This document shows, in pieces, positions 1 through 17,592 of a DNA stretch of 64,000 nucleotides. This stretch comes from Halanaerobium saccharolyticum subsp. saccharolyticum DSM 6643 (GTDB lineage: Bacteria; Bacillota; Halanaerobiia; Halanaerobiales; Halanaerobiaceae): the NCBI RefSeq assembly GCF_000350165.1, contig NZ_CAUI01000015.1, positions 1-64,000 on the forward strand. Reading direction: 5' to 3'. The position numbers and the translations under genes were made by a program. Numbering within the stretch: the stretch's first letter is position 1; each line of letters starts with the position of its first letter. The notes below the pieces were generated by a model, which had not been told where the DNA came from, did no database searches, and saw only the letters and a program-made list of their open reading frames with translations.

Positions 1-280
1 AAATAAGTTTCATGAAGATAGCAAATTCAATATATCAATGAGAAGCACTGCAGCAGATAATATTAAGTTTAATTAAAAGAAGAGAGATCTTAATTAAAAT
101 AGTTTTTGATTAATATTTTAAATGTTAAGTTTTTAATAAACTTACAAATATAAAAGCCTTATTGTCCATCATAAAGTTTTGTAAATCTATATGAAGTAAG
201 TTTCGGGAAGATCTAGAATTTTAAGTATCAATGAGAAGTATAACAGCAATAATAAATAATAGAGAAGTAAAGATTTTTAC

Positions 281-309
281 GCCTAACAGTCACAGTTGTG
301 ACATTAGGC
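281..309. repeat. Short two-stem hairpin resembling a collapsed attC
   Basis: A 6-base outer stem (GCCTAA/TTAGGC) and a 5-base inner stem (TCACA/TGTGA) are separated by a small unpaired bulge. The outer left arm matches the R'' end of the attC at 12811 (GCCTAAC). The right arm does not carry a clean GTT core. It could be a deletion derivative of an attC or an unrelated hairpin. Confidence 0.4.
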
Positions 310-394
310 TGGGTCAAGTGTCTTTATTGCTTAGAAGTTTCGAGATGGATTGACAAGATGCCCTTTAGAAAATCAAAAAAGAGAAATAATGATT

Positions 395-427
395 AAACCT
401 GTTACTATGCAGGTATTTTTTTCTTTT
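395..427 (+). terminator. Rho-independent terminator-like hairpin
   Basis: A five-base stem (ACCTG/CAGGT) with an eight-base loop is followed by a run of T. A closely related sequence, including the downstream CTTTTACATGAAGTA, recurs near 12360-12400. Confidence 0.5.
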
Positions 428-737
428 ACATGAAGTATATTAATAATAAATCGATTTCTGCAAGTAAAACTAAATTAATAGATTTTTATTCTGCAATAAT
501 AGGGAATTTTAGTTTGCAATTTACAGGAATATTAATTGCAATCCTTTAAAGTTGGTAAAAATATTATGAACTTAACTTCGTGAAGATCTAATAATTTAGT
601 GATAAAAGAACAATTAATTCAATTAAACATACTCATTAGAGCTTTAAATGAGTATGTTTAAGAGTTAATGACTATATTTATTCAGAAAATCAAAATAATA
701 AAAAAGAAAAAATTAAAAGAGCTGTCGTTTAACAGTC

Positions 738-869
738 GTATAACATGGGATTGGCGTCATGCCTTCTGTCACAAAGCTTGCAATAATAGCTGCAAGAAAT
801 TTGGAAGGCAAGCTTTCCGCCAGTTCCTGACGGAATCAGGCACGAGCGCAAATCCCAGTAACGTTATAC
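738..869 (+). repeat. Integron attC site 1 (long family)
   Basis: The site starts with R'' GTATAAC and ends with R' GTTATAC. Inside these, TGGGATT(G)GCG near the left end pairs with CGC(A)AATCCCA near the right end, with single unpaired bases as expected of extrahelical bases. The centre holds further pairing arms (AAAGCTTGC and GCAAGCTTT). Its sequence is near-identical to attC sites 2, 3 and 5. Confidence 0.88.
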
Positions 870-937
870 GCAATTCCCCTAGCTAAACTTTTAATTCTGG
901 AAGATAAAAATTTACAATTCAAAAGGAGGAAATATAT

Positions 938-1774
938 ATGGGAATTGATAAAAGTAAAGATGATAATGAGGAAAAATTTAAATCTTTAATAGAAAATATT
1001 GATCTAGAAGAAATTAATTTGGAGAATGAAGAAGCATTAGATAAAACAAAAGAACTTTTTAGAAATACTATTGATTTTTTTTCAGTTCAACAAAAACATC
1101 GTAATAAAAATAGAGAGAAAACTAAACAAGTATATGGAAAAATGGCATATGGACATATGGTCTGTTTAGGAGCAATTAATAGTTTAATAAAGCGCTACAA
1201 TTCAAAACCAGGAAAAACTAATGAAAAAATAACTAATTCTTTATCTTTATTATCTTCTTTTTTGCAAAGTATAGATATATGTGAAGTAACAATTACTGAG
1301 AGTACTTATGTTCAAGCTACAGCTTTATTAAAACAAGAAATGGAGATTATATCAGCTTTTGAAGAAATTTGGAAAGATAAAAGAGAAGATGGTATTACCC
1401 CGAATGTATCTCATTTAGAATTTGGTTTAAATGAATTATATGGAGATATAAATGATATTGCTCATACAGGTAAGCAAAAAATATTAAATGATTTCTATCA
1501 AGTTGATTTTCAAACTGGTAATAAAATTAATCCTACTAGTATTACTCCAGTTTTTGATAAAAAATTAGCAAGAAGGTTGTATGGATTACATTTAGCTTTG
1601 ATGATTCAAGGCGCTCTTTGTTTAGATCAACTTTTTAAAGAAATGTATGATGATGGATTTACAAAAGAAGAATATATATTTATCAGCTATGCAGGTGAAA
1701 CTTTGGTTAAAGAAGGTTGGCTTGTTTCAGAAGAAGAAAAAAATAAAAATCCAAAGTGGCCTGAACCTAAATAA
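938..1774 (+). CDS. Cassette gene: helical protein of unknown function (278 aa)
   Basis: This is the first intact cassette gene, lying between attC 1 and attC 2. The ATG follows a strong AAAGGAGG ribosome binding site. I do not recognise the family. The protein is acidic at its N-terminus and appears almost entirely alpha-helical, without signal peptide or membrane segment. Around residues 165-185 it has a G-D-I-N-D-I-A-H-T-G stretch that recalls the conserved histidine segment of DUF5677-type proteins, but this is only a weak resemblance. The 200 bases after the stop are non-coding before the attC begins. A defence or stress role is suggested only by the neighbouring cassettes. Confidence 0.8.
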   Translation: MGIDKSKDDNEEKFKSLIENIDLEEINLENEEALDKTKELFRNTIDFFSVQQKHRNKNREKTKQVYGKMAYGHMVCLGAINSLIKRYNSKPGKTNEKITNSLSLLSSFLQSIDICEVTITESTYVQATALLKQEMEIISAFEEIWKDKREDGITPNVSHLEFGLNELYGDINDIAHTGKQKILNDFYQVDFQTGNKINPTSITPVFDKKLARRLYGLHLALMIQGALCLDQLFKEMYDDGFTKEEYIFISYAGETLVKEGWLVSEEEKNKNPKWPEPK

Positions 1775-1977
1775 ATATTTTTATCAGATATTTCAATTTA
1801 AAATAAATAAGATATAAAGGTAAAAATTAGTTTATTTAATGTGATTAAATTTTTTGACAAACACCGATTTTGAGTTATGTTTTAATAAAAAACTGGAATA
1901 ATAAAAATTTAATCAAAATTAATTTTAAAATCATATATTGAGTGTTAAACAAAAACTGAAATCCTACGGGGAACAGC

Positions 1978-2110
1978 GTATAACATGGGATTGGCGTCAT
2001 GCCTTCTGTCATAAAGCTTGCAGGTTAACCAATTACGTATATGAAAAAGCAAGCTTTACGCCAGTTCCTAACGGAATCAGGCACGAGCGCAAATCCCAGA
2101 GACGTTATGT
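1978..2110 (+). repeat. Integron attC site 2 (long family)
   Basis: R'' GTATAAC and R' GTTATGT bound the site, and inner boxes TGGGATTGGCG and CGCAAATCCCA pair. The central part, which includes AAAGCTTGC/GCAAGCTTT and the small GTTCC..GGAAC hairpin, is shared with the other long-family sites. Confidence 0.9.
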
Positions 2111-2139
2111 GACATCGAAAAAGTTCTAGGGGGTATATT

Positions 2140-3195
2140 TTGAATAAAAAAGAAATGTTTTTAAAAGCAAAAAACGGTTATCTTTCATTATTAGGATTTG
2201 ACAATATTATTAATAAAGCTCCTAAAAATGTTGATGTTCCAAACACTGATTTTATTGTTTCAAATGATGAAAAGTCAATGATTATTGGATTTAAAAATAA
2301 AGACCCTCAATTTTTATTCAATTATTTAAAGAAGAATCCTAAAAAATTGAATGAATTTTATATTGGCTCAGATTTTTTTCTTGCTAAGAGTGATAATTTG
2401 AATGTGGATCTAATAATAAAAGCTTCAAATTTAAATATTTTTTATATTTTACTTGAAATTCTTGATGAAACAAAAGAAAGCATTACATATAAAGGAGCTC
2501 CATTTTATTTATATGCTGAAAGCCCTTCGGTTTGGTGTATAATTATGCATTATATAAATAATAAAAATGATCTAATAAATGAAGAATATAGAAATATTAA
2601 AAGTTATATGGGAGAAAAGCAATTTACAAATAAAGTTAAGTCTTTTATTAAAAACAAACAAAAACTAATTGTTTTTGTTGAAGGAGAAACAGATGAAAAA
2701 TATATAAATAAAGCATTAAAACTTCTAAAACCTGATTTATTAAAATATATTGAAATAAAATGGGTTGGAAAACTAAAAAGTAATGGAAGAACTTTTAATA
2801 CTGGAAAAAGAGGATTAGACTCATTAAAAAATGTGTTATCCGCTAACCCTGAGTTAATAAATAATAAAATAATTTTATTATATGATTCAGATACTAACAA
2901 ACCTAAAGAAAATTTTAAGAATTTATATGTTAGGAAAGTCCCATTTATTGAAAACCGAAAAATAACTAAAGGGATTGAAAACTTATTTGAAAATCATTTA
3001 ATAAGTGAAGAATTTTATTCAGAAAAAGAATATTTGAGTGAGTATGGCGAAAGGAAAAGAATAGAACAGTTAGATAAAATGAAATTATGTGATTATCTAT
3101 GTAACCAGACTGAAAAAGAAATATTTAAAGATTTCGAATCAATAATAAAAATATTTGAGAGAATACTTAGCAAGTATAAATTCGACGTCACATAA
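2140..3195 (+). CDS. Cassette gene: DUF4435/TOPRIM-like protein (351 aa)
   Basis: The gene lies between attC 2 and attC 3 and uses a TTG start behind AGGGGG. The C-terminal half has a TOPRIM-like core: a glutamate in F-V-E-G-E-T-D-E near residue 178 and an L-L-Y-D-S-D-T motif near residue 248. These are the metal-binding positions of DUF4435 and OLD-type nucleases. The N-terminal 170 residues contain no recognisable ATPase motif. DUF4435 proteins include AriB, the toxin nuclease of the PARIS anti-phage system. Here no AriA-type ATPase is adjacent, so it is either a stand-alone effector or works with something elsewhere. The stop codon lies inside the R'' box of attC 3. Confidence 0.78.
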   Translation: MNKKEMFLKAKNGYLSLLGFDNIINKAPKNVDVPNTDFIVSNDEKSMIIGFKNKDPQFLFNYLKKNPKKLNEFYIGSDFFLAKSDNLNVDLIIKASNLNIFYILLEILDETKESITYKGAPFYLYAESPSVWCIIMHYINNKNDLINEEYRNIKSYMGEKQFTNKVKSFIKNKQKLIVFVEGETDEKYINKALKLLKPDLLKYIEIKWVGKLKSNGRTFNTGKRGLDSLKNVLSANPELINNKIILLYDSDTNKPKENFKNLYVRKVPFIENRKITKGIENLFENHLISEEFYSEKEYLSEYGERKRIEQLDKMKLCDYLCNQTEKEIFKDFESIIKIFERILSKYKFDVT

Positions 3196-3321
3196 CATGG
3201 GATTGGCGTCATGCCTTCTGTCATAAAGCTTGCAATATTATGCAGCAAGAAATATTAAATCAAGCTTTACGCCAGTTCCTGACGGAACTAGGCACGAGCG
3301 CAAATCCCAGTAACGTTAAGC
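3190..3321 (+). repeat. Integron attC site 3 (long family)
   Basis: R'' ACATAAC overlaps the stop codon of the preceding gene, and R' is GTTAAGC. Inner boxes TGGGATTGGCG and CGCAAATCCCA pair. The central loop has diverged slightly from the other long-family sites. Confidence 0.9.
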
Positions 3322-3414
3322 AACATGATATCTTTCTGTTTGGTCCGGTATTTATAGAGAAATTAAGTATTTTTAATGACAATCGTAGAATCAAATTTTT
3401 TTAAGGAGGCATAT

Positions 3415-5007
3415 ATGGAGATAGATAACTTTGATATGGATAATAAGCCAAATGAATGGCCTGCAAATGCTATTGAGTGTCAATTAGATAACATTTATAC
3501 TCAGTTAACTAGTTTTAAAGAGGAGTCGTGTTATAAAAATAAGGAAGTCTTGTTATCATTAATTAGCGATTATGATTTAAATCAAAGCTCAATGTTGGGA
3601 CTTGTTCGAACTACTGATTATGAAGTAGCTCTAATAAATACACTTTTTTTTGAAGCTATGTTTTTAAATCTCAGTGCGTTAAAAACATATTTATATGAGC
3701 TAGTAGGTCATAAAACAAGAATGCAAAAAATGGCATCATTGGTTTCAGAAGGAGACATATCACTAGAAATAGAAGAATTCAAAGGATTATTTCATTCATT
3801 AAAGCTATATCATATCACATATCAACAATTTAATGTTGAAAAAAATGGTTCTTATACTGAAAATCTGGTTGAAGTTGTAGAAGAATTTATAGAATTCTCA
3901 AAAGAGAATGACCCGGAAAATATATTCGAAAAAAATATTGAAATGATTACAAAATCCTACATTTCACTACTTAATGATATAAGCTATTTCAGGTGTATAA
4001 AAAGAAATAAAATTTGGGCTTTTTCTCGTAATGAAATTTACAAGTTATTTAACTTAGCAGCAAAGCTTAGCAAACTCAATGGAGATTCTCCAGTAGTAAG
4101 TCCATTAAAAGGGGTACTTATGACAAGTATAAGTAATTATATCTTGAAATCACGTAATGACTACAATAAAGATTATATTTGCAAGTACATCAGTTCTGAA
4201 GTGGCTAAAAAAAGTATTGATAATCATGAAATATGGATGTCAAAAATTGAAAATTTAAATGATGAGAGGGAACAAAGAGTTGTTCCTGAATTGTTTGAAG
4301 AAGCTGAGTGGATTAACCATTCATGGGCAAATAATATTAATTTTGAATCTAAAAGAGAATATTATGTTTCATCATTTTCTAAGACATTGAATGATTCAAT
4401 TATGAAAAAAGAATATGGGGCGTGTATATATGGGTATAAAGATGATCGGATGGTAGAAGTGCTATCTCCGATAATGTATCGATATAAAAAAGATGATACA
4501 AAATCTCCAGCATTTTCTCAAGTTATTGCCTTTGATGTAATCTATGATAGAGAAGAAGCAAAAAAAGAAATTAAGTTTCTCTGTGATGTAATTGACTGTT
4601 TTGATATAAGTGATGTTGATAAGAATAGTTTTTTAGAAGAGATTCTACAATATTGGATATTATCAGTTAAAGATAAAAAATGGGCATATGAACGTGAACG
4701 CAGATATGTTTTATTTATGTATGATGATTATGATTATAAGGAAATAGATACAAAAAACCCTAGTTTTCTAAAGTTAAAAACATCACTATTTATTCAACCT
4801 GATTTTATTCTAGGTGAAAATCCAGTTAAGCCGTTTATTAGAAAGATGGTTGAAAATAAGAGAAAAGCAATTTATACAAAGCCTTATTTATTTTGTAATA
4901 ATTGTTTAAACAGAGATTTTGATATTGTTGCGGGAGGAATAAAAGAAATTAATTCATGTACAGTTTGTGGTTCTCAAAATATATCATTAAAAAAGCCGAG
5001 TAAATAA
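3415..5007 (+). CDS. Cassette gene: DUF2971-like protein with C-terminal zinc ribbon (530 aa)
   Basis: I chose the ATG at 3415 because it follows AAGGAGG at the right distance; an upstream in-frame ATG at 3376 lacks a ribosome binding site. The first 300 residues are helical and unrecognised. Residues from about 300 to 480 resemble DUF2971, with a F-S-K-T-L-N-D-S-I-M-like segment and the W-A-Y-E-R-E-R-R motif near residue 425. The C-terminus (about 494-520) carries C-N-N-C and C-T-V-C pairs typical of a zinc ribbon. DUF2971 proteins are often found in defence islands, but their activity is not settled. The combination with a terminal zinc ribbon is unusual to me. Confidence 0.72.
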   Translation: MEIDNFDMDNKPNEWPANAIECQLDNIYTQLTSFKEESCYKNKEVLLSLISDYDLNQSSMLGLVRTTDYEVALINTLFFEAMFLNLSALKTYLYELVGHKTRMQKMASLVSEGDISLEIEEFKGLFHSLKLYHITYQQFNVEKNGSYTENLVEVVEEFIEFSKENDPENIFEKNIEMITKSYISLLNDISYFRCIKRNKIWAFSRNEIYKLFNLAAKLSKLNGDSPVVSPLKGVLMTSISNYILKSRNDYNKDYICKYISSEVAKKSIDNHEIWMSKIENLNDEREQRVVPELFEEAEWINHSWANNINFESKREYYVSSFSKTLNDSIMKKEYGACIYGYKDDRMVEVLSPIMYRYKKDDTKSPAFSQVIAFDVIYDREEAKKEIKFLCDVIDCFDISDVDKNSFLEEILQYWILSVKDKKWAYERERRYVLFMYDDYDYKEIDTKNPSFLKLKTSLFIQPDFILGENPVKPFIRKMVENKRKAIYTKPYLFCNNCLNRDFDIVAGGIKEINSCTVCGSQNISLKKPSK

Positions 5008-5087
5008 ATTTTGTGTTTACATGAGTAAAACAAGATAGTTTTAGGGGGCTTTGTACATATTATTTTGAAGGCATCCGATATCACGTC

Positions 5088-5192
5088 GCTTAACAGCAAG
5101 GTTTACGGTTTCGCTTCGCTACACCCAAATTCATTCGGCAAGGGCAGTCGCCCTAAACCTCATGAACTTCGTAAACCTGCAGGACGTTATCT
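5088..5192 (+). repeat. Integron attC site 4 (short family)
   Basis: R'' GCTTAAC and R' GTTATCT bound a 105-bp site. Inner boxes GCA(A)GGTTTACG and CGTAAACCTGC pair with one extrahelical base. The central arms (AGGGC..GCCCT and flanks) are shared with sites 6 and 7 and differ from the long family. Confidence 0.88.
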
Positions 5193-5228
5193 GACATGCT
5201 TTGTTTATATAGAGAAAGGAGTTTTTAT

Positions 5229-7709
5229 ATGGATAATAAATTTGAAAAATTTAATGAGAAACTAAAAATATTCTCATGTTATTTAATTTTTGCATTAATC
5301 ATTCTAATATTAAGTGGTTTTATGGAAAAATTTATTATTGAATTTGGGTTTATAAGAAGTGTATATTTATCAGGAAACAACTTTTATCAGAGTTTTTTAT
5401 TAAGTTTATGGGGGATACAAACTACTATTTCTATATTAACTTTTACATTGATTCCTTTTATTCTTTCAAAGTTAGATATAAAAGTTTTAGGTATGAATTC
5501 ATTTAAATTTTTAAATACTGTAACTGTATTTAAAATCAGATATTGGGAAAGTTTAATTTATTCTTTAATTCTTATTTTATTAAATGGTTGGTTTGTTTTA
5601 GAAGAAAAATATTTGTCAGTTTTTTTGGTATTTGGATTCACAATATTATTTGTAAGTACTCTTACTAGAAAAACATTTAAATATATAATAAAACCAGATA
5701 AATTAGAATCTGAAATAAAAGAGATTATAAAAAAAGAATTAAAAGAATGTTTATCTGAAGAAAAAGAAACACTAAGTAGTAATATTATTAATTTAAATCA
5801 AGATTTTGAGGAAAATATAAAACGAGGTAATGTGATTAAAGCTATTAATGAATTGAATTTTATTAGAAAATTATTTTTTATATCAGACAAAAACGCTTCA
5901 TCAAGCAATAAGGAAATTACAAAAGTTTTACATGAATTATTAAAAGATAATGTAAATACTTTAATAAAAAATGATTATATTACTGAAGCAAAGGAGTTTA
6001 TTTTAGAAAGTTATAATAAATTTTTCGAATTAGAAGAACCTAAATTCAAATTAGATTTATATATAGAGGTTCAAAGTTGGATGGAAAAATTAAGATATTA
6101 TGATAGAGTCCAATTAAAAAAGATAAAACCAATTGATTTAATAAATTATTTTTATAAAAATCCTGTAAAAAGATTAAATTATGGATCATTGGATAAGGAT
6201 TTATTCTCAAGATATAGTTATATAATAACTCAGAACAGTAAATTAAATTTCAAAGAAAAGTATAATATATTTTATAGATTATTAGAAAGAAATATTTTAA
6301 TAAATAAAAATGAAAATATGCTGACAGCATTAGAAATATTAAAAACTCTGTTAGACTTTGAAGATATAAAAATGTTTGCAAGAGGTATAAATTATGTTTT
6401 AAATATGAGTGTTAGTAAGGAAAAAGAGAGTAATATTATAATATTAACTCTTTCTATATATTTTTATTATATTATTTATAAAAATGAAGAAATACATAAT
6501 GGATTTAGAAACAACTTAAAAAAAGTAGTTGAAGGAATTGAAATTATAGATTTTACAAGTCATTTTAGTAAAAATGTTGTATTCCCAAAGGAAATAATAT
6601 TAAACGAAAATATTTTTAAATATTATGAGAAAGTAAGAGATTTATTATTAAATCAACTTAAATGGGAAGAAACACCGACTATAAATTTTTCTGGAGAAGC
6701 TCATATTATGAAAATGCCTTTTGTTATTAAAGAATTTTTTGTTTTTTATGTTTTTACTTATGGCAATGTCTATTTGGAAAAAGATATAAATAATAATTTA
6801 AGTGAAGATGAACTATTTTCTATATTGGATAGTTTTTTTGATAATGAAGGTGAATTGAAAGAAAATATAAAATCAAATTACAATAATTTTTTAGAATTAT
6901 ATAAAACAGAAAAACAACAAGATAAGATCAAAGAATTTTATCAATTATTCAATAAAACATATAAAGAAAAACATCTTAATAGAGTTTTAGATTTATCTTA
7001 TAATATAAATAAGATAAATAATAATTTTAATGTTTTTCAAAAAGAAGAATTAAATTTACTTAATAGTATATCTTATTTAAATTTATCAGATAAAAATGTA
7101 AAAAGTAAATCAAAAACTTTTTCTCATAATATTACAGTTCCTACTCAATCTTTAGAAGAAGAGTATTCTCTAAAACAATTGAAAGGAAGTTGTAAAGATT
7201 TGGTGTTACAAACTATTAAGAAAAAGTTAATTAATATATTTGATGTGATTCTTATAGATGCAAGAACTGATTCGGGTTTAAAATCTATAATAACCAAATT
7301 AAAAGAATTAGAATCTAATATAGATGTTGCTTTTGAAAGCGATTTTTTATTAAGTTTTATATTTAGAAAATCAAATTTTGAAGGTGAATATTATCGGTTA
7401 ACAAAAAACATAAAAAGATATGAAAATAAATATAATTACAATTTTTATATAAATAGCAGTAAATTTAATTTTTATTTAGGTGATTTTAATATACAATTAT
7501 TAAATATTAAAGAAGAAATGATAAATAAAGATAATATTGATAAAGAAGATGGTTTATTTAAAATAGCGACTATGAATGATGTTAAAGTTTATTTATCTGA
7601 AGAAGAATTAAAAGAATATTTATGTAAGATGAATAGATTAATAAAATTAGAATATAAACTATTTATTTCTGACGAAAAAAATAACGGTTTTATTATTAAA
7701 ATGAATTAG
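5229..7709 (+). CDS. Cassette gene: large membrane-anchored protein of unknown function (826 aa)
   Basis: The ATG at 5229 follows AAAGGAG; an upstream in-frame start at 5196 would lie against the attC and lacks a ribosome binding site. The N-terminal 150 residues contain about four hydrophobic helices. A long cytoplasmic region follows, rich in Lys, Asn, Ile and Glu, with helical repeats. Near the C-terminus is a folded segment containing V-I-L-I-D-A-R-T-D-S-G. I recognise no family. The gene is more AT-rich than the rest of the window, consistent with foreign origin. Its place between two attC sites makes it a single-gene cassette, unusually long for one. Confidence 0.78.
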   Translation: MDNKFEKFNEKLKIFSCYLIFALIILILSGFMEKFIIEFGFIRSVYLSGNNFYQSFLLSLWGIQTTISILTFTLIPFILSKLDIKVLGMNSFKFLNTVTVFKIRYWESLIYSLILILLNGWFVLEEKYLSVFLVFGFTILFVSTLTRKTFKYIIKPDKLESEIKEIIKKELKECLSEEKETLSSNIINLNQDFEENIKRGNVIKAINELNFIRKLFFISDKNASSSNKEITKVLHELLKDNVNTLIKNDYITEAKEFILESYNKFFELEEPKFKLDLYIEVQSWMEKLRYYDRVQLKKIKPIDLINYFYKNPVKRLNYGSLDKDLFSRYSYIITQNSKLNFKEKYNIFYRLLERNILINKNENMLTALEILKTLLDFEDIKMFARGINYVLNMSVSKEKESNIIILTLSIYFYYIIYKNEEIHNGFRNNLKKVVEGIEIIDFTSHFSKNVVFPKEIILNENIFKYYEKVRDLLLNQLKWEETPTINFSGEAHIMKMPFVIKEFFVFYVFTYGNVYLEKDINNNLSEDELFSILDSFFDNEGELKENIKSNYNNFLELYKTEKQQDKIKEFYQLFNKTYKEKHLNRVLDLSYNINKINNNFNVFQKEELNLLNSISYLNLSDKNVKSKSKTFSHNITVPTQSLEEEYSLKQLKGSCKDLVLQTIKKKLINIFDVILIDARTDSGLKSIITKLKELESNIDVAFESDFLLSFIFRKSNFEGEYYRLTKNIKRYENKYNYNFYINSSKFNFYLGDFNIQLLNIKEEMINKDNIDKEDGLFKIATMNDVKVYLSEEELKEYLCKMNRLIKLEYKLFISDEKNNGFIIKMN

Positions 7710-7728
7710 ACATTTTATGACGCACGTC

Positions 7729-7861
7729 AGATAACATGGGATTGGCGTCATGCCTTCTGTCATAAAGCTTGCAGGTTAACCAATCACGAATACGAAAAAG
7801 CAAGCTTTACGCCAGTTCCTGGCGGAACCAGGCACGAGCGCAAATCCCAGGGACGTTATCC
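7729..7861 (+). repeat. Integron attC site 5 (long family)
   Basis: R'' AGATAAC and R' GTTATCC bound the site, with paired inner boxes TGGGATTGGCG and CGCAAATCCCA. The CAGGTTAACCAAT central loop is shared with site 2, and site 8 carries a variant of it. Confidence 0.9.
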
Positions 7862-7901
7862 GAAATCTAATTTAAAGATCTTTTTAAAGGAGAAATTTAA
7901 T

Positions 7902-8996
7902 ATGTATTGTTGTGAGGTATGTTTTAGTGATAAAAAAATAGTAGGTTATATTAAACAAAATGGTAGTAAAAATAATTGTGATTTTTGTGGTGCAAAAAAT
8001 GTTGCTTGTATAAATCCATTAGAATTACAAGATTTATTTGTAAATTTAATTGATTTATATACTCCTTATAAAGAAATAAATTATACAGAAAGGAATTTCA
8101 GCGGATCATTAGCAGAATTAATTCAATATGAATGGAATATATTTAATAATAATTTAACTAAAAATAATCAAAATAGTCTTTTAGATAAAATAAGAAATGA
8201 TAAAGGTAATGAAAATTTTTATAGTTCTTCTGAATTATGGATAGATTTTAAATATGATTTTCTCATAAATTCTGGAGTAGGTTATTGGAGTATTTTATCA
8301 GAAAAACTAAAATATCATACAAGATTTATAATAAATCAATCTACTAATAATGAACAACAATTTTTTGATTTATTAAATGAATCTATAGAGATCGCAAAAA
8401 CTATATTATCAGAAGGTTGTAAAATCTATAGAGCAAGAATCGGAAGTAAAAAAGAGAAAAATAATAAAATAAATCAAAAATATGTTCCGTATAAAGAAAT
8501 GGGGGTTCCTCCGAGAAATAAAGCAAGTGCTGGCAGGGCTAATCCATCTGGGATACCATTTTTATATTTAGCATCTGATAAAAAGACAGCTTTATCTGAA
8601 GTAAGACCTTGGAAAAAAGCAAAAGTTTCAATTGCAAGTTTTTTGACAAATCAACAGTTGAAAATTGTAGATCTAACTGATATTGATAATATAAAATCTC
8701 CTTTTGAATTTCAAGATAATCTAAAAAGAGAAATAGAGAAAAGATATTTTATAAAAAATTTAAGTTATAAATTAGCAAAACCAATAAATCCAAATAAATC
8801 TGATATAGAGTATATTCCGACTCAATTTATTACTGAATATATTAAGATGAAAAATTATGATGGTATAAAATTCAAAAGTGCTATGGGACCAGGTAATAAT
8901 ATAGTTTTATTTAATGAAAAAGTTGTTACTCAAAAAAATAGTAACCTGTTTGAAGTTGAAAATATTGATTATAAGTTTCATGAATATAAAAATTAG
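7902..8996 (+). CDS. Cassette gene: RES-domain protein with N-terminal zinc finger (364 aa)
   Basis: The ATG follows AAAGGAG. The N-terminus has cysteines at residues 3, 4 and 7 and a C-D-F-C pair near 27-30, as in the HEPN/RES N-terminal domain. A helical section follows. The RES domain occupies about residues 175-340, with Y-R-A-R-I-G, then R-N-K-A-S-A-G-R-A-N-P-S-G-I-P and L-Y-L-A-S-D...A-L-S-E-V-R-P-W. It ends with the Y-D-G-I-K-F-K-S segment typical of the family. Characterised RES toxins degrade NAD+ and arrest growth. No Xre-type antitoxin lies beside it in the cassette, which fits the stand-alone HEPN-RES architecture proposed as an abortive-infection effector. The defence role is inference. 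Confidence 0.86.
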   Translation: MYCCEVCFSDKKIVGYIKQNGSKNNCDFCGAKNVACINPLELQDLFVNLIDLYTPYKEINYTERNFSGSLAELIQYEWNIFNNNLTKNNQNSLLDKIRNDKGNENFYSSSELWIDFKYDFLINSGVGYWSILSEKLKYHTRFIINQSTNNEQQFFDLLNESIEIAKTILSEGCKIYRARIGSKKEKNNKINQKYVPYKEMGVPPRNKASAGRANPSGIPFLYLASDKKTALSEVRPWKKAKVSIASFLTNQQLKIVDLTDIDNIKSPFEFQDNLKREIEKRYFIKNLSYKLAKPINPNKSDIEYIPTQFITEYIKMKNYDGIKFKSAMGPGNNIVLFNEKVVTQKNSNLFEVENIDYKFHEYKN

Positions 8997-9028
8997 TTCT
9001 TAATATAGTGTTTATAAAATTAGACTTC

Positions 9029-9132
9029 GGATAACATGGGATTGAAGATTCCGCTGCGCTCCATGCAAATTTATTCGGCAAGGGCAGTCGCCCTAAGCCT
9101 CATAAACTTCTTAAATCCCAAGAACGTTATCC
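9029..9132 (+). repeat. Integron attC site 6 (short family)
   Basis: R'' GGATAAC and R' GTTATCC bound a 104-bp site. TGGGATT(G)AAG pairs with CTT(CTTA)AATCCCA. The central section with GGGCAGTCGCCC is shared with site 4. Confidence 0.9.
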
Positions 9133-9164
9133 GAAATAACTATATTCGAGAAAGGAGTTTAAAT

Positions 9165-10721
9165 ATGTATATTAAAAAAATAGCTATATCAGGTTATAAA
9201 ACTTTAGTAGATTTTAAATTTGAAGAGATACAAGAAGGTTTAAATATATTAGTTGGAAAAAATAATGTAGGGAAAAGTAATATTTTAAAAGCACTTGATA
9301 TATTTTTTACTCGGCAAGGCACATTAAAAGAAGATGAGATTGCCAATTCTTTTGATTCATTTTTAAATAATCGAGACAACATATATATGGAAGTAGTTTT
9401 TGCTGATGCTTCTGATATGTTTGGTAGTAACAGAAGTGAGATTACTTTAAAAATTAATTTAAATGAAAATAATAGGAAATATATGATTAAATTAAAAGGA
9501 AAATATAAAAACATGTCTAAAGATAGTTTTTTTAAAAATAATCCAAAATATATTTATTTTGGTGATTTAAATGAAATGAATTTTAATTCAAATGATTTGC
9601 AAGAACTATATTCTATAAATAATGCGAATGAAAGAAGAAAAATTGAAACTAATGCTTCCCAGTTTTTGCAATATATTTTAAACACTAATATTAATATTTC
9701 AATTAATTTGAATAACGATAGTTCTTATAGCATAGATGTAATTGATAGCTATGGAAACAGTAATTTGTTATCTAATAAAAGTTCTGGTCTACAGCAATTA
9801 GTTTATTTAGGGGTAGTTTTTTCTTTTAATTTGTTAAAAAAACCTAAAAATATTATTTTGGGTATTGAAGAACCTGAATCTAATTTACATACTTCTTTAC
9901 AAAAAAGACTTTTCAAAAGGATAAGAGAAATTTCTGAAGCGTATTCTGTACAGATTTTTTTGACAACACATTCTCCTGTTTTTATAGATAAATTTAATTA
10001 CGAATCTGTGCATCATGTAAAAAGAAACAATAATATGCATACGAAGGTCTTAAAAGAAAGTTATAGAAATAATTGGTTTAATATAAGAAAAGATTTAGGA
10101 TTAGGTATTAATGATTCTTTATTTGTCGGAGAGTTCAATTTGCTTGTAGAGGGACCTACTGAAAAAATTATTTTTCCAAAAATAATAAAGATATTACATG
10201 ATAAGGACTTAATTAGTTTTGGCGAAGAAGATATTAATTTATTGAGTGCTCAAGGAGCACCAAACTTGCATTATTTTTCAAAATTAATATCTCAAATGGG
10301 GTTACCAACTGTTATTTTAGTAGATAAAGATCAACAAGGAAATAATGCAAAAGAAAAAATTGAAGACGATAACCGTTTTAACAAATTAAAAGTCATCTCT
10401 TTAGATAAAGAAGGACATGATAAATGTGAAATTGAAGATTTAATAAATAATGACCTTTTATTAAATAGTATAAATGAGTTATATAATAGTTCACTGAATG
10501 AAGAGGATCTATTAAGAGCTCGAAAAAATGAATATCATGAAGAGTCAGGTTTAATAAAATTTTCAAAGGCATTTAAAAAATTTGATTTAGAAAAAAATAG
10601 AGATTTATCTAAATTAAATCTTGCAACAATAATAAAGAGTGGTTTAAATGAAGAATATGATTTAGAATTAATTAAAGAATTTTTTATGAAAATTGATAAT
10701 TTTTATAAAGAGTTTATGTAA
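9165..10721 (+). CDS. Cassette gene: OLD-family ATP-dependent endonuclease (518 aa)
   Basis: I chose the ATG at 9165, which follows AAAGGAG; the longer frame from 9036 begins inside attC 6. The ATPase half shows Walker A G-K-N-N-V-G-K-S-N near residue 31, an ABC-type signature S-S-G-L-Q-Q-L near 205, Walker B I-L-G-I-E-E-P-E-S-N near 231 and the T-T-H-S-P switch. The C-terminal TOPRIM domain has L-L-V-E-G-P-T-E near 326 and V-D-K-D-Q-Q-G near 385, the metal-binding residues of OLD nucleases. OLD proteins act in phage exclusion and pair with GajB in Gabija. No helicase partner lies in this cassette, so it resembles the single-gene class. Confidence 0.9.
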   Translation: MYIKKIAISGYKTLVDFKFEEIQEGLNILVGKNNVGKSNILKALDIFFTRQGTLKEDEIANSFDSFLNNRDNIYMEVVFADASDMFGSNRSEITLKINLNENNRKYMIKLKGKYKNMSKDSFFKNNPKYIYFGDLNEMNFNSNDLQELYSINNANERRKIETNASQFLQYILNTNINISINLNNDSSYSIDVIDSYGNSNLLSNKSSGLQQLVYLGVVFSFNLLKKPKNIILGIEEPESNLHTSLQKRLFKRIREISEAYSVQIFLTTHSPVFIDKFNYESVHHVKRNNNMHTKVLKESYRNNWFNIRKDLGLGINDSLFVGEFNLLVEGPTEKIIFPKIIKILHDKDLISFGEEDINLLSAQGAPNLHYFSKLISQMGLPTVILVDKDQQGNNAKEKIEDDNRFNKLKVISLDKEGHDKCEIEDLINNDLLLNSINELYNSSLNEEDLLRARKNEYHEESGLIKFSKAFKKFDLEKNRDLSKLNLATIIKSGLNEEYDLELIKEFFMKIDNFYKEFM

Positions 10722-10733
10722 TATAGTTACTTC

Positions 10734-10836
10734 GGATAACATGGGATTGAAGATTCCGCTGCGCTCCATACAAATTCATTCACTAAGCGCAGTCGCGCTA
10801 AGTTCATGAACTTCTTAAATCCCAGTAACGTTATAT
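10734..10836 (+). repeat. Integron attC site 7 (short family)
   Basis: R'' GGATAAC and R' GTTATAT bound the site. The inner boxes are as in site 6. The central arm reads AAGCGCAGTCGCGCT instead of AAGGGCAGTCGCCCT, a paired (compensated) change that supports selection on folded single strands. Confidence 0.9.
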
Positions 10837-10869
10837 GACATAATCGTTAATATTTAGGAGGAGTTTAAC

Positions 10870-11691
10870 ATGAAAAGTCAAGGTTTTAAATTTACTAAGG
10901 TTTTAAACCATGGAACTGATAATCCAATTATAAATAGATTGTCTTTTCAATTTTTTGAACTATTTAAAACAAATCTAATAAATTTATCTGATAAAAAAAT
11001 TGAAAAAATAAAAGAGCTACTTCATGAATGTACTTTAGATTTAATTAAAGCACAAGAATTATTTAACAATTATTTAGAAAAACAAAATAAAACCATTAAA
11101 GAAATTATTGATAATGAAAATTTTAAAATACAGGATAATATTATACAATATGATGATCCTTCATACGAACTAAATAAATATTTTGAAGATTTTTTAATAA
11201 GAAATGTTATAGCTTTAAGAAAAACAATTAAAATTGCAGAATGTGTTTTTGATCAAGAATTTGATGGACCTAAAGATTTATTAAAGCATTTACAAGAAGT
11301 ATTTGTTGATAAAGAAGAATACATAAAAATGTTAGAAGAAGATAGCAAATGGTTTAAGGAATTATATGATTTTAGAGGAGAAGTTGAACATTCAAAATTA
11401 GAAATAACAAACTTTGAACTCTTCTTAGATAAAAATGATAAACCATTAGTAAAGAAACAAATTCTTGTTGATAAAAATTGTACACTAGAAAAATATATGG
11501 ATGTTACATTATATAATGTTTTTTCTTATTGTGAAGATTTTACAGCAATGTTATTAAAATTACATTGTTCCGAAAAAGTAAGAATTATTCAAATACCTGA
11601 AGAGCAAAGAAAGAATAATAAAAATTTCAAATATACTTTTGATCTTTGCGAAGATTTAAAAAGTAAAATATTTAATGATGATAAAGGTTAA
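10870..11691 (+). CDS. Cassette gene: helical protein with HEPN-like RxxxxH motif (273 aa)
   Basis: The ATG follows TAGGAGG. The protein is helical and highly charged, with no signal peptide or membrane segment. Near residue 175 it carries F-R-G-E-V-E-H-S, which matches the R-x4-H catalytic motif of HEPN ribonucleases. The surroundings (preceding helix ending W-F-K-E-L-Y-D, following S-K-L-E) fit a HEPN fold. I do not recognise a specific family, so the RNase assignment is a motif-level inference. It is the cargo of the cassette between attC 7 and attC 8, downstream of the OLD nuclease cassette. Confidence 0.78.
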   Translation: MKSQGFKFTKVLNHGTDNPIINRLSFQFFELFKTNLINLSDKKIEKIKELLHECTLDLIKAQELFNNYLEKQNKTIKEIIDNENFKIQDNIIQYDDPSYELNKYFEDFLIRNVIALRKTIKIAECVFDQEFDGPKDLLKHLQEVFVDKEEYIKMLEEDSKWFKELYDFRGEVEHSKLEITNFELFLDKNDKPLVKKQILVDKNCTLEKYMDVTLYNVFSYCEDFTAMLLKLHCSEKVRIIQIPEEQRKNNKNFKYTFDLCEDLKSKIFNDDKG

Positions 11692-11707
11692 ATTAAACGA
11701 TTACGTC

Positions 11708-11840
11708 ATATAACATGTGATTGGCATCATGCCCTCTGTCATAAAGCTTGCAGGTTAACTAATCAAGGATATGAAAAAGCAAGCTTTACGCCAGTTCCTG
11801 ACGGAACCAGGCACGATTGTAAATCCAAGTAACGTTATAT
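11708..11840 (+). repeat. Integron attC site 8 (long family, partly degenerate)
   Basis: R'' ATATAAC and R' GTTATAT are intact. The left inner box is TGTGATTGGCAT and the right one AAATCCA, so one G has changed to T and pairing is weaker than in the other sites. The central loop is a variant of that in site 5. Confidence 0.82.
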
Positions 11841-11879
11841 GAAACCGTAGCAAAAAATTTAATAACTAAAAACTTGACA

Positions 11880-11914
11880 CATAAAAAAATAGTGCTGCAA
11901 AACTTTCAGCACTG
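11880..11914 (-). terminator. Terminator of the antisense toxin-antitoxin remnant
   Basis: On the minus strand a seven-base stem (AGTGCTG/CAGCACT) is followed by ATTTTTTT. It sits just past the stop of the decayed antitoxin gene. Confidence 0.7.
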
Positions 11915-12199
11915 TTAATTAAATCTAATTTCAAGTTTTTTACCAAGTGCGTGAGCAACTTTATCAAGAAATTAAACACTCGGATTATAATCATCATTTT
12001 CTAGTCTGGAAATAGCAGACTGTTTAGTTCCTATTCTATCTGCTAATTCTTTCTGAGTTAAATCATTTTCTATTCTATACCTAATTATTTGTTTTTTTAT
12101 TTCATACATAACATTCAGCTTTTCATATTCTTCTTTAACTTTTTCAGATTCAAAAAGCTAATTCTTAAGATCTTTGTGATCTATAAATTTCTTTTTGTT
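11915..12199 (-). pseudogene. Decayed HigA-type Xre antitoxin, antisense in its cassette
   Basis: Reading the minus strand gives a segment beginning K-F-I-D-H-K-D-L-K-N, then a stop, then a long frame with L-T-Q-K-E-L-A-D-R-I-G-T-K-Q-S-A-I-S-R-L, the helix-turn-helix of HigA-like antitoxins. A second in-frame stop follows N-P-S-V, and the frame resumes through F-L-D-K-V-A-H-A-L-G-K-K-L-E-I-R-F-N to the natural end. No ATG is left at the expected start. Two internal stops and a lost start mean it is not functional. It opposes the direction of the other cassette genes, as toxin-antitoxin cassettes with their own promoter often do. Confidence 0.82.
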
Positions 12200-12204
12200 T
12201 CACC

Positions 12205-12342
12205 TCACTTGATAGAGTCAAGTCTGTTAAGAGCAATATCTATTTCTCTTAGAATTTTAGCCTTTGCTTTAGCTGGCTGTTCTTTAATAAATTCAATTAC
12301 TGGAGATTTATTATTTTTTGCATAATACTTAATCTTATACAT
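12205..12342 (-). pseudogene. Truncated HigB/RelE-type toxin remnant
   Basis: A 45-residue frame on the minus strand reads M-Y-K-I-K-Y-Y-A-K-N-N-K-S-P-V-I-E-F-I-K-E-Q, the N-terminus of the HigB/Gp49-like toxin family. It ends after L-D-S-I-K, where intact members continue for roughly 60 more residues. It lies directly upstream of the decayed HigA antitoxin, which is the usual HigB-HigA order. The conserved C-terminal catalytic residues are missing, so it should be inactive. Confidence 0.75.
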
Positions 12343-12354
12343 AATCTATTCACT

Positions 12355-12410
12355 TATTGCTGTATAAATGCAGGATTTTTTTTCTTTTACATGAAGTAAG
12401 TTAATAATTA
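12355..12410 (+). repeat. Copy of the 395-445 leader/terminator sequence
   Basis: The sequence ATGCAGG(T/A)TTTTTTT...CTTTTACATGAAGTA followed by TTAATAAT is shared with positions 408-450, with a few differences. In both places it lies upstream of an attC. Its role is unknown; it may be the 3' part of a cassette transcript or a remnant of a mobile element end. Confidence 0.5.
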
Positions 12411-12438
12411 ATAAATTAATAGATAAAGCTACGGCATC

Positions 12439-12563
12439 ATGTAACATGGGTTTGGCGACATACCTTCTGTCACAAAACTTACAATTTAAATAATTATTGA
12501 TGCTGAAAAATAATTTTTTTGCCAGTTCCTGGCGGAAAAAAGTAAATCGCAGTAACGTTATAC
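12439..12563 (+). repeat. Integron attC site 9 (long family, diverged)
   Basis: R'' ATGTAAC and R' GTTATAC bound the site. TGGGTTTGGCG faces AAATCGCA, so the inner pairing is imperfect. The central part still shows ACCTTCTGTCA and GCCAGTTCCTGGCGGAA from the long family. Confidence 0.8.
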
Positions 12564-12585
12564 GAAAGAATGCACACAAGATAGG

Positions 12586-12798
12586 GTGATTAAAAATGAA
12601 GAGAAGGGGTATGGTCTACCTAAAATAGCTAATATTTTCAAGAATAAAGATGTTATGAATCAAACTAATAAGTTAATTAGGTTACTTTCATTTCAAGAAA
12701 AAGATAACTTAATTGAAAGAGTTTGTAAACTTAATTTATCAGATGATAAGAAAGACATGATTTTAGGAAATAATCTTCAAATAATATTAGATAACTAA
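12586..12798 (+). CDS. Cassette gene: small protein or gene tail (70 aa)
   Basis: This short frame lies between attC 9 and attC 10. No clear Shine-Dalgarno sequence precedes its ATG (GGGTGATTAAA is the nearest). The C-terminal half, with N-L-S-D-D-K-K-D-M-I-L-G-N-N, resembles the end of amidohydrolase-type enzymes, where a final helix follows L-S-x-x-x-K-x-x-I-x-x-x-N. It may therefore be the tail of a longer deleted gene. As an independent small protein it has no recognisable function. Confidence 0.45.
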   Translation: MIKNEEKGYGLPKIANIFKNKDVMNQTNKLIRLLSFQEKDNLIERVCKLNLSDDKKDMILGNNLQIILDN

Positions 12799-13371: not shown

Positions 13372-13421
13372 ATACAAACATATGTATTGTATAATTATAG
13401 TAGAAAGGAGGTGAAAAATCA

Positions 13422-14675
13422 ATGCGGTTATCATTTAAATTTAAGCCTAAATTAAACCATAAGCAGTTAGTGATAATTAGGGAATTAGCCTGGCATTGCT
13501 CTAAATTATATAATACAATTAATTATAAAGTAAAAAATAATAAAGAGCAAAAACCTGTCTATACTCAATTAGAAAAACAGTTTAAAAATAACTGGCATAA
13601 TGAATACCTTCATTCTCATAACAGACAGCAGGCATTAAAACAATTAGCTCAGGACTGGAAAAGTTTTTTTGCTTCTCTCAAAGATTATAATAAGAATCCT
13701 CAAAAATATAAAGGGCAGCCAGGACCGCCAAATTTTAAACATCTAAACAGCAACCCCTGCGAAATAATATTTACCAACTTAGCTATTAGAATTAGAAATG
13801 ATAAATTGCTTTTGTCCTTATCTAAAAGAATACAATCTAAATATAATGTGAAAGCTCTTAATTTTGAGCTGCCTGAAGCAGTTCAAAGCATTATAGATTT
13901 AGATGCTGTTCAGCAGATAAAGATCAAGCAGGATCACATCTCTAAAAAATGGTATCTTTTAATTATCTACAAAGTTAAAGAAGCAAAAGAAAGTAAGAAA
14001 TCCAACATGATGGCAGTAGATTTGGGGCTTGATAATTTAGCTACCTTAACATTTAAAAATAATTCTGAGTGTTATATTATCAATGGTAAAACTATTAAAT
14101 CTAAAAACGCTTACTTCAATAAAAAAATTGCTAGACTGCAGAGTATCAGAATGAAACAGCAGAGTACCAGCAAAATTAAAGATACCAGCGAGATAAAAAG
14201 ACTCAGATTAAAGAGAAGAAATTATATTAGAGATTATCTCCATAAAGCAAGTTGGAAAATAGTTGATTTAGCAGTTGGAAATAAGGTGTCTGCTATTGTA
14301 ATTGGAGATATAAAAAATATTAAGCAAAGCAGCAAGCTTAAGTCTTTTGTCCAAATACCAATTCAGAGATTAGTTGAACTAATTGAATATAAAGCTAAAT
14401 TAAATGGTATCAAGGTTGTTAAAATTAATGAAAGTTATACCTCTGGCTGTAGTGCACTAGATCTAGAAAAAATAAATAAAAGCAACTATAATAAATCCAG
14501 AAGAATTACAAGAGGTCTCTTTAAAACTAATCAAGGTCTATTAATTAATGCAGATCAGAATGGCAGTCTTAACATTCTTCGCAAATACCTAAAAAATAAA
14601 TGTATTCTCAGACCTATTAAACAGGCGAGAGATAATGGATATGTGGCCAATCCTTCAAGATTAAGGGTATCCTAA
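13422..14675 (+). CDS. tnpB: TnpB RNA-guided nuclease (417 aa)
   Basis: The ATG follows AAAGGAGGTG. TnpB is the RuvC-type nuclease of IS200/IS605 elements, cutting DNA next to a target-adjacent motif under guidance of an omega-RNA made from the element's right end. The RuvC aspartate is in A-V-D-L-G-L-D near residue 199, the second acidic position in V-I-G-D-I near 292, and the last in I-N-A-D-Q-N-G-S-L-N-I-L near 375. This copy has the T-S-x-C-S-x-L-D form without the usual CxxC zinc pairs, as in a known IS1341-type subgroup. The frame is full length and looks intact. Confidence 0.92.
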   Translation: MRLSFKFKPKLNHKQLVIIRELAWHCSKLYNTINYKVKNNKEQKPVYTQLEKQFKNNWHNEYLHSHNRQQALKQLAQDWKSFFASLKDYNKNPQKYKGQPGPPNFKHLNSNPCEIIFTNLAIRIRNDKLLLSLSKRIQSKYNVKALNFELPEAVQSIIDLDAVQQIKIKQDHISKKWYLLIIYKVKEAKESKKSNMMAVDLGLDNLATLTFKNNSECYIINGKTIKSKNAYFNKKIARLQSIRMKQQSTSKIKDTSEIKRLRLKRRNYIRDYLHKASWKIVDLAVGNKVSAIVIGDIKNIKQSSKLKSFVQIPIQRLVELIEYKAKLNGIKVVKINESYTSGCSALDLEKINKSNYNKSRRITRGLFKTNQGLLINADQNGSLNILRKYLKNKCILRPIKQARDNGYVANPSRLRVS

Positions 14676-14826
14676 TAACTTAGGAGGCGACTTAAAAACC
14701 AAACATCTTGTAAACTAACCTAGTAATATAGGTTGAAGTTTAATCTATATGAAGTAGTTAGAAGCACCATCCGACGCGAAGCTAGTATCTTTGATGAAAA
14801 TCTATAATTTAGGTGGTGAGGTTCAC
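14676..14826 (+). ncRNA. Predicted omega-RNA / right end of the intact TnpB element
   Basis: The 150 bases after tnpB are nearly identical to those after the decayed second copy, although the two differ completely beyond. They contain a stem CCTA..TAGG, ATCTATATGAAGTAG, a CCGACGCGAAGC segment and the end GGTGGTGAGGTTCAC, as expected of an omega-RNA scaffold. The guide would begin at about 14827 (GATCAATGTGG). Confidence 0.65.
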
Positions 14827-15195
14827 GATCAATGTGGATTAATTGTAAGAATAGATCAAGATAATTGGATTAAGGTCTCTACAGAATATGAAAACGAAAA
14901 TATAAGTAGATTAGAATCAGTTGTTACGAATTTAGGTTATTCTGATTGGGCAACAACAGATATATCTTCGGAGATTAAATCAATGTGGTATCGAATTAGT
15001 AAAAATGGTAATGATTTTTTAATTGAGAATTCTAGGGGTGGAGAAAATTGGAAACAAATTAGAATAACTCACCTTCACCAAGAAATAGAAGAGTTAGAAG
15101 TAGGTATTTATGCTTGTAGCCCTCAAGATAGTAGTTTTCAATGTAAGGCAGATAAAATAATAATAGACAAAAACAAATGGGGGATAGATAAATAA
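14827..15195 (+). pseudogene. DUF1349 gene, 3' part
   Basis: The frame reads D-Q-C-G-L-I-V-R-I-D...W-I-K-V-S-T-E-Y, then V-V-T-N-L-G-Y-S-D-W-A-T and G-I-Y-A-C-S-P-Q, all in the order found in the C-terminal half of DUF1349. It continues the gene broken at 13371. An in-frame ATG at 14791 exists, but it lies in the sequence shared with the second TnpB copy and so belongs to the element end. It could in principle still produce a half-domain. Confidence 0.8.
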
Positions 15196-16310: not shown

Positions 16311-16330
16311 TTCTTTTACATACAAACATA

Positions 16331-17329
16331 GCGGTTATCATTTAAATTTAAGCCTAAATTAAACCATAAGCAGTTAGTGATAATTAGGGAATTAGCCTGG
16401 CATTGCTCTAAATTATATAATACAGTTAATTATAAAGTAAAAAATAATAAAGAGCAAAAACCTGTCTATACTCAATTAGAAAAACAGTTTAAAAATAACT
16501 GGCATAATGAATACCTTCATTATCATAATAGACAGCAGGCATTAAAACAATTAGCTCAGGACTGGAAAAGTTTTTTTGCTTCTCTCAAAGATTATAAAAA
16601 GAATCCTCAAAAATATAAAGGGCAGCCAGGACCACCAAATTTTAAACATCTGAACAGCAACCCCTGTGAAATAATATTTACCAACTTAGCTATTAGAATT
16701 AGAGATAATAAATTGCTTTTGTCCTTATCTAAAAAGATACAATCTAAATATAATGTGAAGGCTCTTAATTTTGAGCTGCCTGAAGCAGTTCAAAGCATTG
16801 TAGATTTAGATGCTGTTCAGCAGATAAAGATCAAGCAGGATCACATCTCTAAAAAATGGTATCTTTTAATTATCTACAAAGTTAAAGAAGCAAAAGAAAG
16901 TAAGAAATCCAACATGATGGCAGTAGATAATGAAACAGCTGGGTACCAGTAAAATTAAAGATACCAGCGAGATAAAAAGACTAAGATTAAAGAGAAGAAA
17001 TTATATTAGAGATTATCTCCATAAAGCAAGTTGGGAAATAGTTGATTTAGCAGTTGAAAATAAGGTGTCTGCTATTGTAATCGGAGATATAAAAATATTA
17101 AGCAAAGCAGCAAGTTTAAGTCTTTTGTCCAAATACCAATTCAGAGATTAAAAGAATTAATTGAATATAAAGCTAAATTAAATGGTATCAAGGTTGTTAA
17201 AATTAATGAAAGTTATACCTCTGGCTGTAGTGCACTAGATCTAGAAAAAACAAATGTATTCTCAGACCTATTAAACAGGCGAGAGATAATGGATATGTGG
17301 CCAATCCTTCAAAATTAAGGGTATCCTAA
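16331..17329 (+). pseudogene. tnpB: Decayed tnpB
   Basis: This copy matches the intact tnpB closely but carries at least four lesions. The ATG is lost. About 130 bases are deleted after A-V-D, removing the region after the first RuvC aspartate. One A is missing in the A-run near 17093, which shifts the frame. A further deletion of about 130 bases near 17250 removes the T-S-C-S-x-L-D to N-A-D region. No active nuclease can be made. Confidence 0.9.
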
Positions 17330-17480
17330 TAACTTAGGTGGCGACTTAAAAACCAAACATCTTGTAAACTAACCTAGTATTATAGGTTGAGTTTTAATCT
17401 ATATGAAGTAGTTAGAAGCACCATCCGACGCGAAGCTAGTATCTTTGATGAAAATCTATGATTTAGGTGGTGAGGTTCAC
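17330..17480 (+). ncRNA. Predicted omega-RNA / right end of the decayed copy
   Basis: The sequence matches 14676-14826 with only a few substitutions, including the CCGACGCGAAGC core and the GGTGGTGAGGTTCAC end. The guide region starting at 17481 (GTTCTATCATCCC) differs from that of the intact copy. If transcribed, it could load onto the intact TnpB. Confidence 0.6.
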
Positions 17481-17481
17481 G

Positions 17482-17592
17482 TTCTATCATCCCGAATTAG
17501 ATACTTATTTAATTGGAAATTTTAATGATACTTCATATATAAGAAAAGGTCTTAAGTTTATGAAAAATATTATTAAAGAATTATTAAAATAA
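17482..17592 (+). pseudogene. C-terminal tail of a serine hydrolase (beta-lactamase family)
   Basis: A 36-residue open tail starts F-Y-H-P-E-L-D-T-Y-L-I-G-N-F-N and ends in L-L-K followed by the stop. This pattern is typical of the C-terminus of class C beta-lactamase-like serine hydrolases. The rest of the gene has been removed by the TnpB element. The stop is followed directly by remains of an attC site, so this was probably a cassette gene. Confidence 0.6.

Follow-up and report, generated by a model that had tools for sequence, protein, structure and literature searches.

Membrane-anchored proteins such as PifA, RexB and ZorA are examples of abortive-infection or effector proteins. The integrons of Vibrio are known as reservoirs of defence genes, with anti-phage activity in at least 16 of 179 integron cassettes from V. 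cholerae (about 10%), and the defence genes of integrons are reported as reduced in size (PMC12409362). Integron-bearing phyla include Firmicutes (PMC8618304), and we found no open-access literature linking Halanaerobium and integrons. The window analysed here (64,000 nucleotides) is the first 64 kb of a contig of the 2.87 Mb genome of Halanaerobium saccharolyticum subsp. saccharolyticum DSM 6643. It contains a gene whose product, P0001, combines membrane helices with a soluble part in the manner of PifA, RexB and ZorA, but shows no detectable sequence similarity to proteins of this type in Pfam or PADLOC. As in the sedentary chromosomal integrons of Vibrio, the gene lies among single-gene attC cassettes, with several likely defence genes per array. 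In contrast to integron defence genes, which are reported to be streamlined, P0001 is very large, its array belongs to Halanaerobium, and in five genomes with such arrays an XerA-type recombinase gene precedes attC sites. The features of the locus are listed below in window coordinates; P0002 and P0003 are the remote relatives described further on.

5084-5197, + strand: upstream attC-type site, divergent, with core ACGTTA and boundary G5186^T5187; resembles the sites at 9027 and 10732
5187-7855, + strand: gene cassette of 2669 bp with one gene; boundaries taken from both attC cores
5214-5221, + strand: ribosome-binding site GAAAGGAG, read from the sequence, seven bases upstream of the ATG at 5229
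5229-7709, + strand: gene of P0001, an 826-residue membrane-anchored protein (open reading frame, composition, hydropathy)
5229-5750, + strand: module at the N terminus (residues 1-174) with about four membrane helices, common to P0002 and P0003
5751-7145, + strand: central region predicted as all-helical and cytoplasmic (low-confidence model), residues 175-639, colinear with P0002
7146-7706, + strand: C-terminal region, residues 640-826, ending DGLFK...GFIIK; found in P0002, not in P0003
7727-7864, + strand: downstream attC-type site; bottom-strand fold of -33.9 kcal/mol with R and L boxes

The open reading frame is a real gene of 826 codons, because a stop-free stretch of this length is not expected by chance (log10 P about -43 for a composition of 44% A and 37% T), the other five frames of 5229-7709 are filled with stops (40-116), and the GC content at codon positions 1, 2 and 3 follows a gene-like gradient (27, 19 and 11.5%). 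Its coordinates, from the ATG at 5229 to 7709 on the + strand, and its length had been given correctly in the preliminary description. An alternative start at 5196 (837 codons) was rejected, as it lies at the end of the attC site and has no ribosome-binding site. The gene is as extremely AT-rich as first described, with a GC content of 19.3% versus 30% for the window.

P0001 is encoded by the sole gene between two attC sites of the same orientation, the arrangement expected of an integron cassette. The bottom strand of the upstream site forms a long hairpin (-20 kcal/mol). The array spans positions 1-12600 of the window, and nearly all of its sites give a bottom-strand hairpin in which the R and L boxes can pair; the site at 12437, the last of the array, folds poorly. 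A strict attC pattern searched over 84,980 genomes returned 32 stretches, all of them from Halanaerobium. The window and 32 loci together gave about 92 cassettes (91 intervals were counted, the divergent upstream attC site having merged the P0001 cassette with the preceding one), with a median size of 1.33 kb. The P0001 open reading frame is the largest of them all, the runner-up having 610 codons, so that its size is indeed unusual for a single cassette, as had been remarked. The start codon lies only 42 bases inside the cassette edge, and a promoter scan found sites no more numerous than in shuffled sequences. Expression is therefore probably driven from upstream or by a promoter in the attC region.

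The initial designation as an integron cassette is supported by the attC sites, but not by the recombinase found at the head of such arrays. A canonical IntI integrase was not found in the genome as assembled, and no recombinase in 12 Halanaerobium genomes scored above the IntI cut-off. The nearest recombinase, of 361-368 residues, is of the XerA type: it reaches 236 bits with NF040815 (cut-off 220) and at best 191 bits with TIGR02249 (cut-off 265), leaving model positions 181-230 unmatched. In five genomes, including the source genome, this recombinase is encoded upstream of attC sites and on the same strand; its gene does not head the array on the contig end that carries P0001. The genes are located as follows:

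L087:8839-9933 (- strand numbering): XerA-type recombinase gene
L088:3461-4546: XerA-type recombinase gene
L089:3639-4724: XerA-type recombinase gene
L091:3743-4828: XerA-type recombinase gene
L092:3415-4521: XerA-type recombinase gene

Given an XerA-type enzyme at array heads in five genomes and no recombinase of IntI grade, the safe description of the P0001 gene is a cassette in an integron-like array rather than in a strictly defined integron. The XerA-type recombinase, which lacks the IntI-specific stretch, may be the integron integrase of these Halanaerobium genomes.

The protein was described at the outset as unrecognised, and it matches no named family in any library searched. P0001 has no match in Pfam, NCBIfam, PADLOC, PHROGs or PDB, in a tblastn search of phages and plasmids, or in direct searches of 59 genomes of the class and 398 genomes of the phylum. 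Scans of genome contigs and viral contigs for close relatives likewise yielded nothing for the family. Clear homology to an ordinary membrane enzyme or transporter, which would tell against a membrane-acting effector, was looked for in Pfam, NCBIfam and PDB and is absent. Matches with low E-values to a type I restriction helicase, an AcrB-like pump, MFS, FtsX-like, BCCT, ComEC, TRAP-like and other proteins were judged on reading to be due to chance, an ABC permease was rejected on the same ground, and two more matches were rejected as unrelated genes or frames. A 560-residue membrane protein of another cassette (L042:1560-3239, also in L043), in which N-terminal helices likewise precede a long soluble region, gave an unconvincing alignment.

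A remote-homology search, which the preliminary description had proposed together with structure prediction, yielded two remote relatives:

L077:3442-5853: P0002, 804 aa (806-codon open reading frame), found with a hand-written probe
L081:480-2121: P0003, 547 aa, found with a profile of P0001 and P0002

The probe, of 112 residues, was composed by hand, loosely after clostridial proteins and with the N terminus of P0001 in view, and is thus biased. It matched 3 of 398 genomes, the matches being P0001 itself, P0002 and a prenyltransferase, rejected as a chance match. Because of this bias the relation between P0001 and P0002 was tested apart from the probe. The two proteins are colinear over nearly their full length with 23% identity. 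Outside the probe region their alignment scores 137, versus maxima of 116 and 88 (in the two directions) for 66 other long open reading frames, and among 1286 segments their C-terminal 120 residues take third or first place. Their N termini alone score 75, level with selected false positives (74-78). P0003 shares the membrane module with P0001 at 27% identity, and this segment scores 106, whereas no unrelated membrane segment exceeds 78. When Hidden Markov Models of the module were built leaving out one member at a time, each member came first among 422 open reading frames (E 5e-6, 2e-4 and 7e-6), the best non-member match having an E-value of 0.005-0.012; family searches gave false matches down to E 9e-5.

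Like P0001, both relatives have an N-terminal module of about four helices, the pattern W..Q..IS..F..I...LD..yGMs...F and a long soluble helical part. P0002 further resembles P0001 in its colinear soluble part, its C-terminal region and its total length, whereas P0003 has no match outside the membrane module and lacks the last part. In contrast to these common traits, identities are only about 16-27% and the genomic settings differ. Neither relative belongs to a named family (Pfam was run on P0002 only). These comparisons place P0001 in a divergent family that has no name in the libraries searched.

The architecture noted initially, about four N-terminal helices followed by a long part without recognisable motif, agrees with hydropathy and the library searches. 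Hydrophobic segments of P0001 are located at residues 14-32, 57-84, 106-124 and 128-146, and the charges of the loops (positive-inside rule) favour an N-in/C-in topology. About 660 soluble residues follow; residues 161-826 include no hydrophobic segment of membrane length, and acidic and basic residues are equal in number. Single-sequence AlphaFold2 prediction gave nearly all helix for P0001, with a mean pLDDT of only 39, and the C-terminal 187 residues alone reached 38. At these confidence values we claim neither a fold nor an active site.

The gene of P0003 lies in a prophage, after genes for tail tube, minor tail protein, holin-like protein and amidase. It is followed by a D12-class (Dam-type) adenine methylase, an unnamed membrane protein, a PH-domain protein and host genes. 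Accessory genes, defence genes among them, are commonly encountered at the edge of a prophage beside the lysis genes. The unnamed membrane protein adjoining P0003 and the methylase at this edge has 296 residues (L082:6321-7211). P0002 is encoded within a dTDP-rhamnose gene cluster, beside a PRiA4_ORF3 protein and in no defence island, a setting which does not speak for defence. The cassettes near P0001 include the following:

2140: TOPRIM-like protein with weak similarity to the retron-Ec67 nuclease
3376: weak PDC-S31 match
7902-8996: HEPN-RES domain protein of toxin-like architecture
9156-10721: OLD/GajA-like ATPase-TOPRIM protein

Since each cassette of an array is a separate gene, these neighbours are weak evidence. 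At the level of the genus, 62 Halanaerobium cassette open reading frames (L031-L062) are rich in defence genes, with clear PADLOC or Pfam matches to SIR2, SEFIR, ThsB-TIR, HerA, PD-Lambda-5 A/B, UzuA, Stk2, Abi_C, HEPN_AbiU2 and type II methyltransferase. Elsewhere in the window, a TnpB-family gene (13417-14833) and a broken second copy (16324-17487, 96-98% identical) enclose a cyclase-family gene.

Taken with the architecture of the protein, the defence-rich arrays and the prophage-borne relative suggest that P0001 is probably a defence protein. The more precise reading that we prefer, a single-gene, membrane-anchored anti-phage protein of the abortive-infection type on a mobile attC cassette, is proposed tentatively, at somewhat less than an even chance. 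The likeness to anti-phage effectors put forward in the preliminary description draws its support from context, that is, from the arrays and the accessory position of P0003 in its prophage. Patchy occurrence and fast divergence around a common membrane module also count in its favour. Against it count the lack of any PADLOC match for P0001, P0002 and P0003, the low-confidence fold, and our finding neither a catalytic nor a sensor motif in P0001. In the proposed mechanism, both the N terminus and the long C-terminal part would be cytoplasmic, as would the loop connecting helix 2 to helix 3. The soluble helical part may sense a phage-made signal or bind a phage protein, upon which the four-helix bundle would oligomerise or open, and the resulting depolarisation would stop the infected cell.

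Other explanations have to be weighed against this one. P0001 could be an ordinary envelope or housekeeping membrane protein (a scaffold, or an accessory factor of polysaccharide synthesis or secretion) captured as a cassette, as the position of P0002 among dTDP-rhamnose biosynthesis genes might suggest; it is however missing from all other genomes of the class that were searched, whereas core envelope factors are conserved, and we regard this origin as unlikely. The prophage accessory position of P0003 adjoining lysis genes and the membrane anchoring of P0001 are also compatible with superinfection exclusion, in which the membrane module would block phage DNA entry or an envelope step, the soluble part would be a scaffold and the cell would survive. 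Typical superinfection-exclusion proteins are nevertheless far smaller than P0001, which makes this role rather improbable.

Toxin-antitoxin genes are often present in cassette arrays, and a HEPN-RES protein is encoded in the adjoining cassette. A toxin or membrane effector without a role against phages, for example a stress-triggered growth inhibitor stabilising the array, is still quite improbable, as the cassette has no second gene that could serve as antitoxin. Finally, extreme AT content and the failure to find close relatives would fit a decaying or selfish orphan open reading frame without selected function. We consider this very unlikely in view of the 826 intact codons, the ribosome-binding site, the codon-position GC gradient and the existence of remote relatives of like architecture.

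If the preferred reading of P0001 as an anti-phage protein is extended to its relatives, they may represent a widespread family, as yet without a name, of large anti-phage proteins anchored in the membrane, whose members are hidden from libraries by identities below about 27% and travel with prophages and with cassette arrays whose recombinase has no IntI-specific domain; this extension is possible but rather doubtful. With P0002 and P0003, profile searches and structure prediction have a starting point. If P0001 protects against phages, it would add a large membrane-anchored defence family that homology-based finders have missed, and cassette arrays in a Bacillota lineage too would prove to be reservoirs of defence genes, some of them unusually large.
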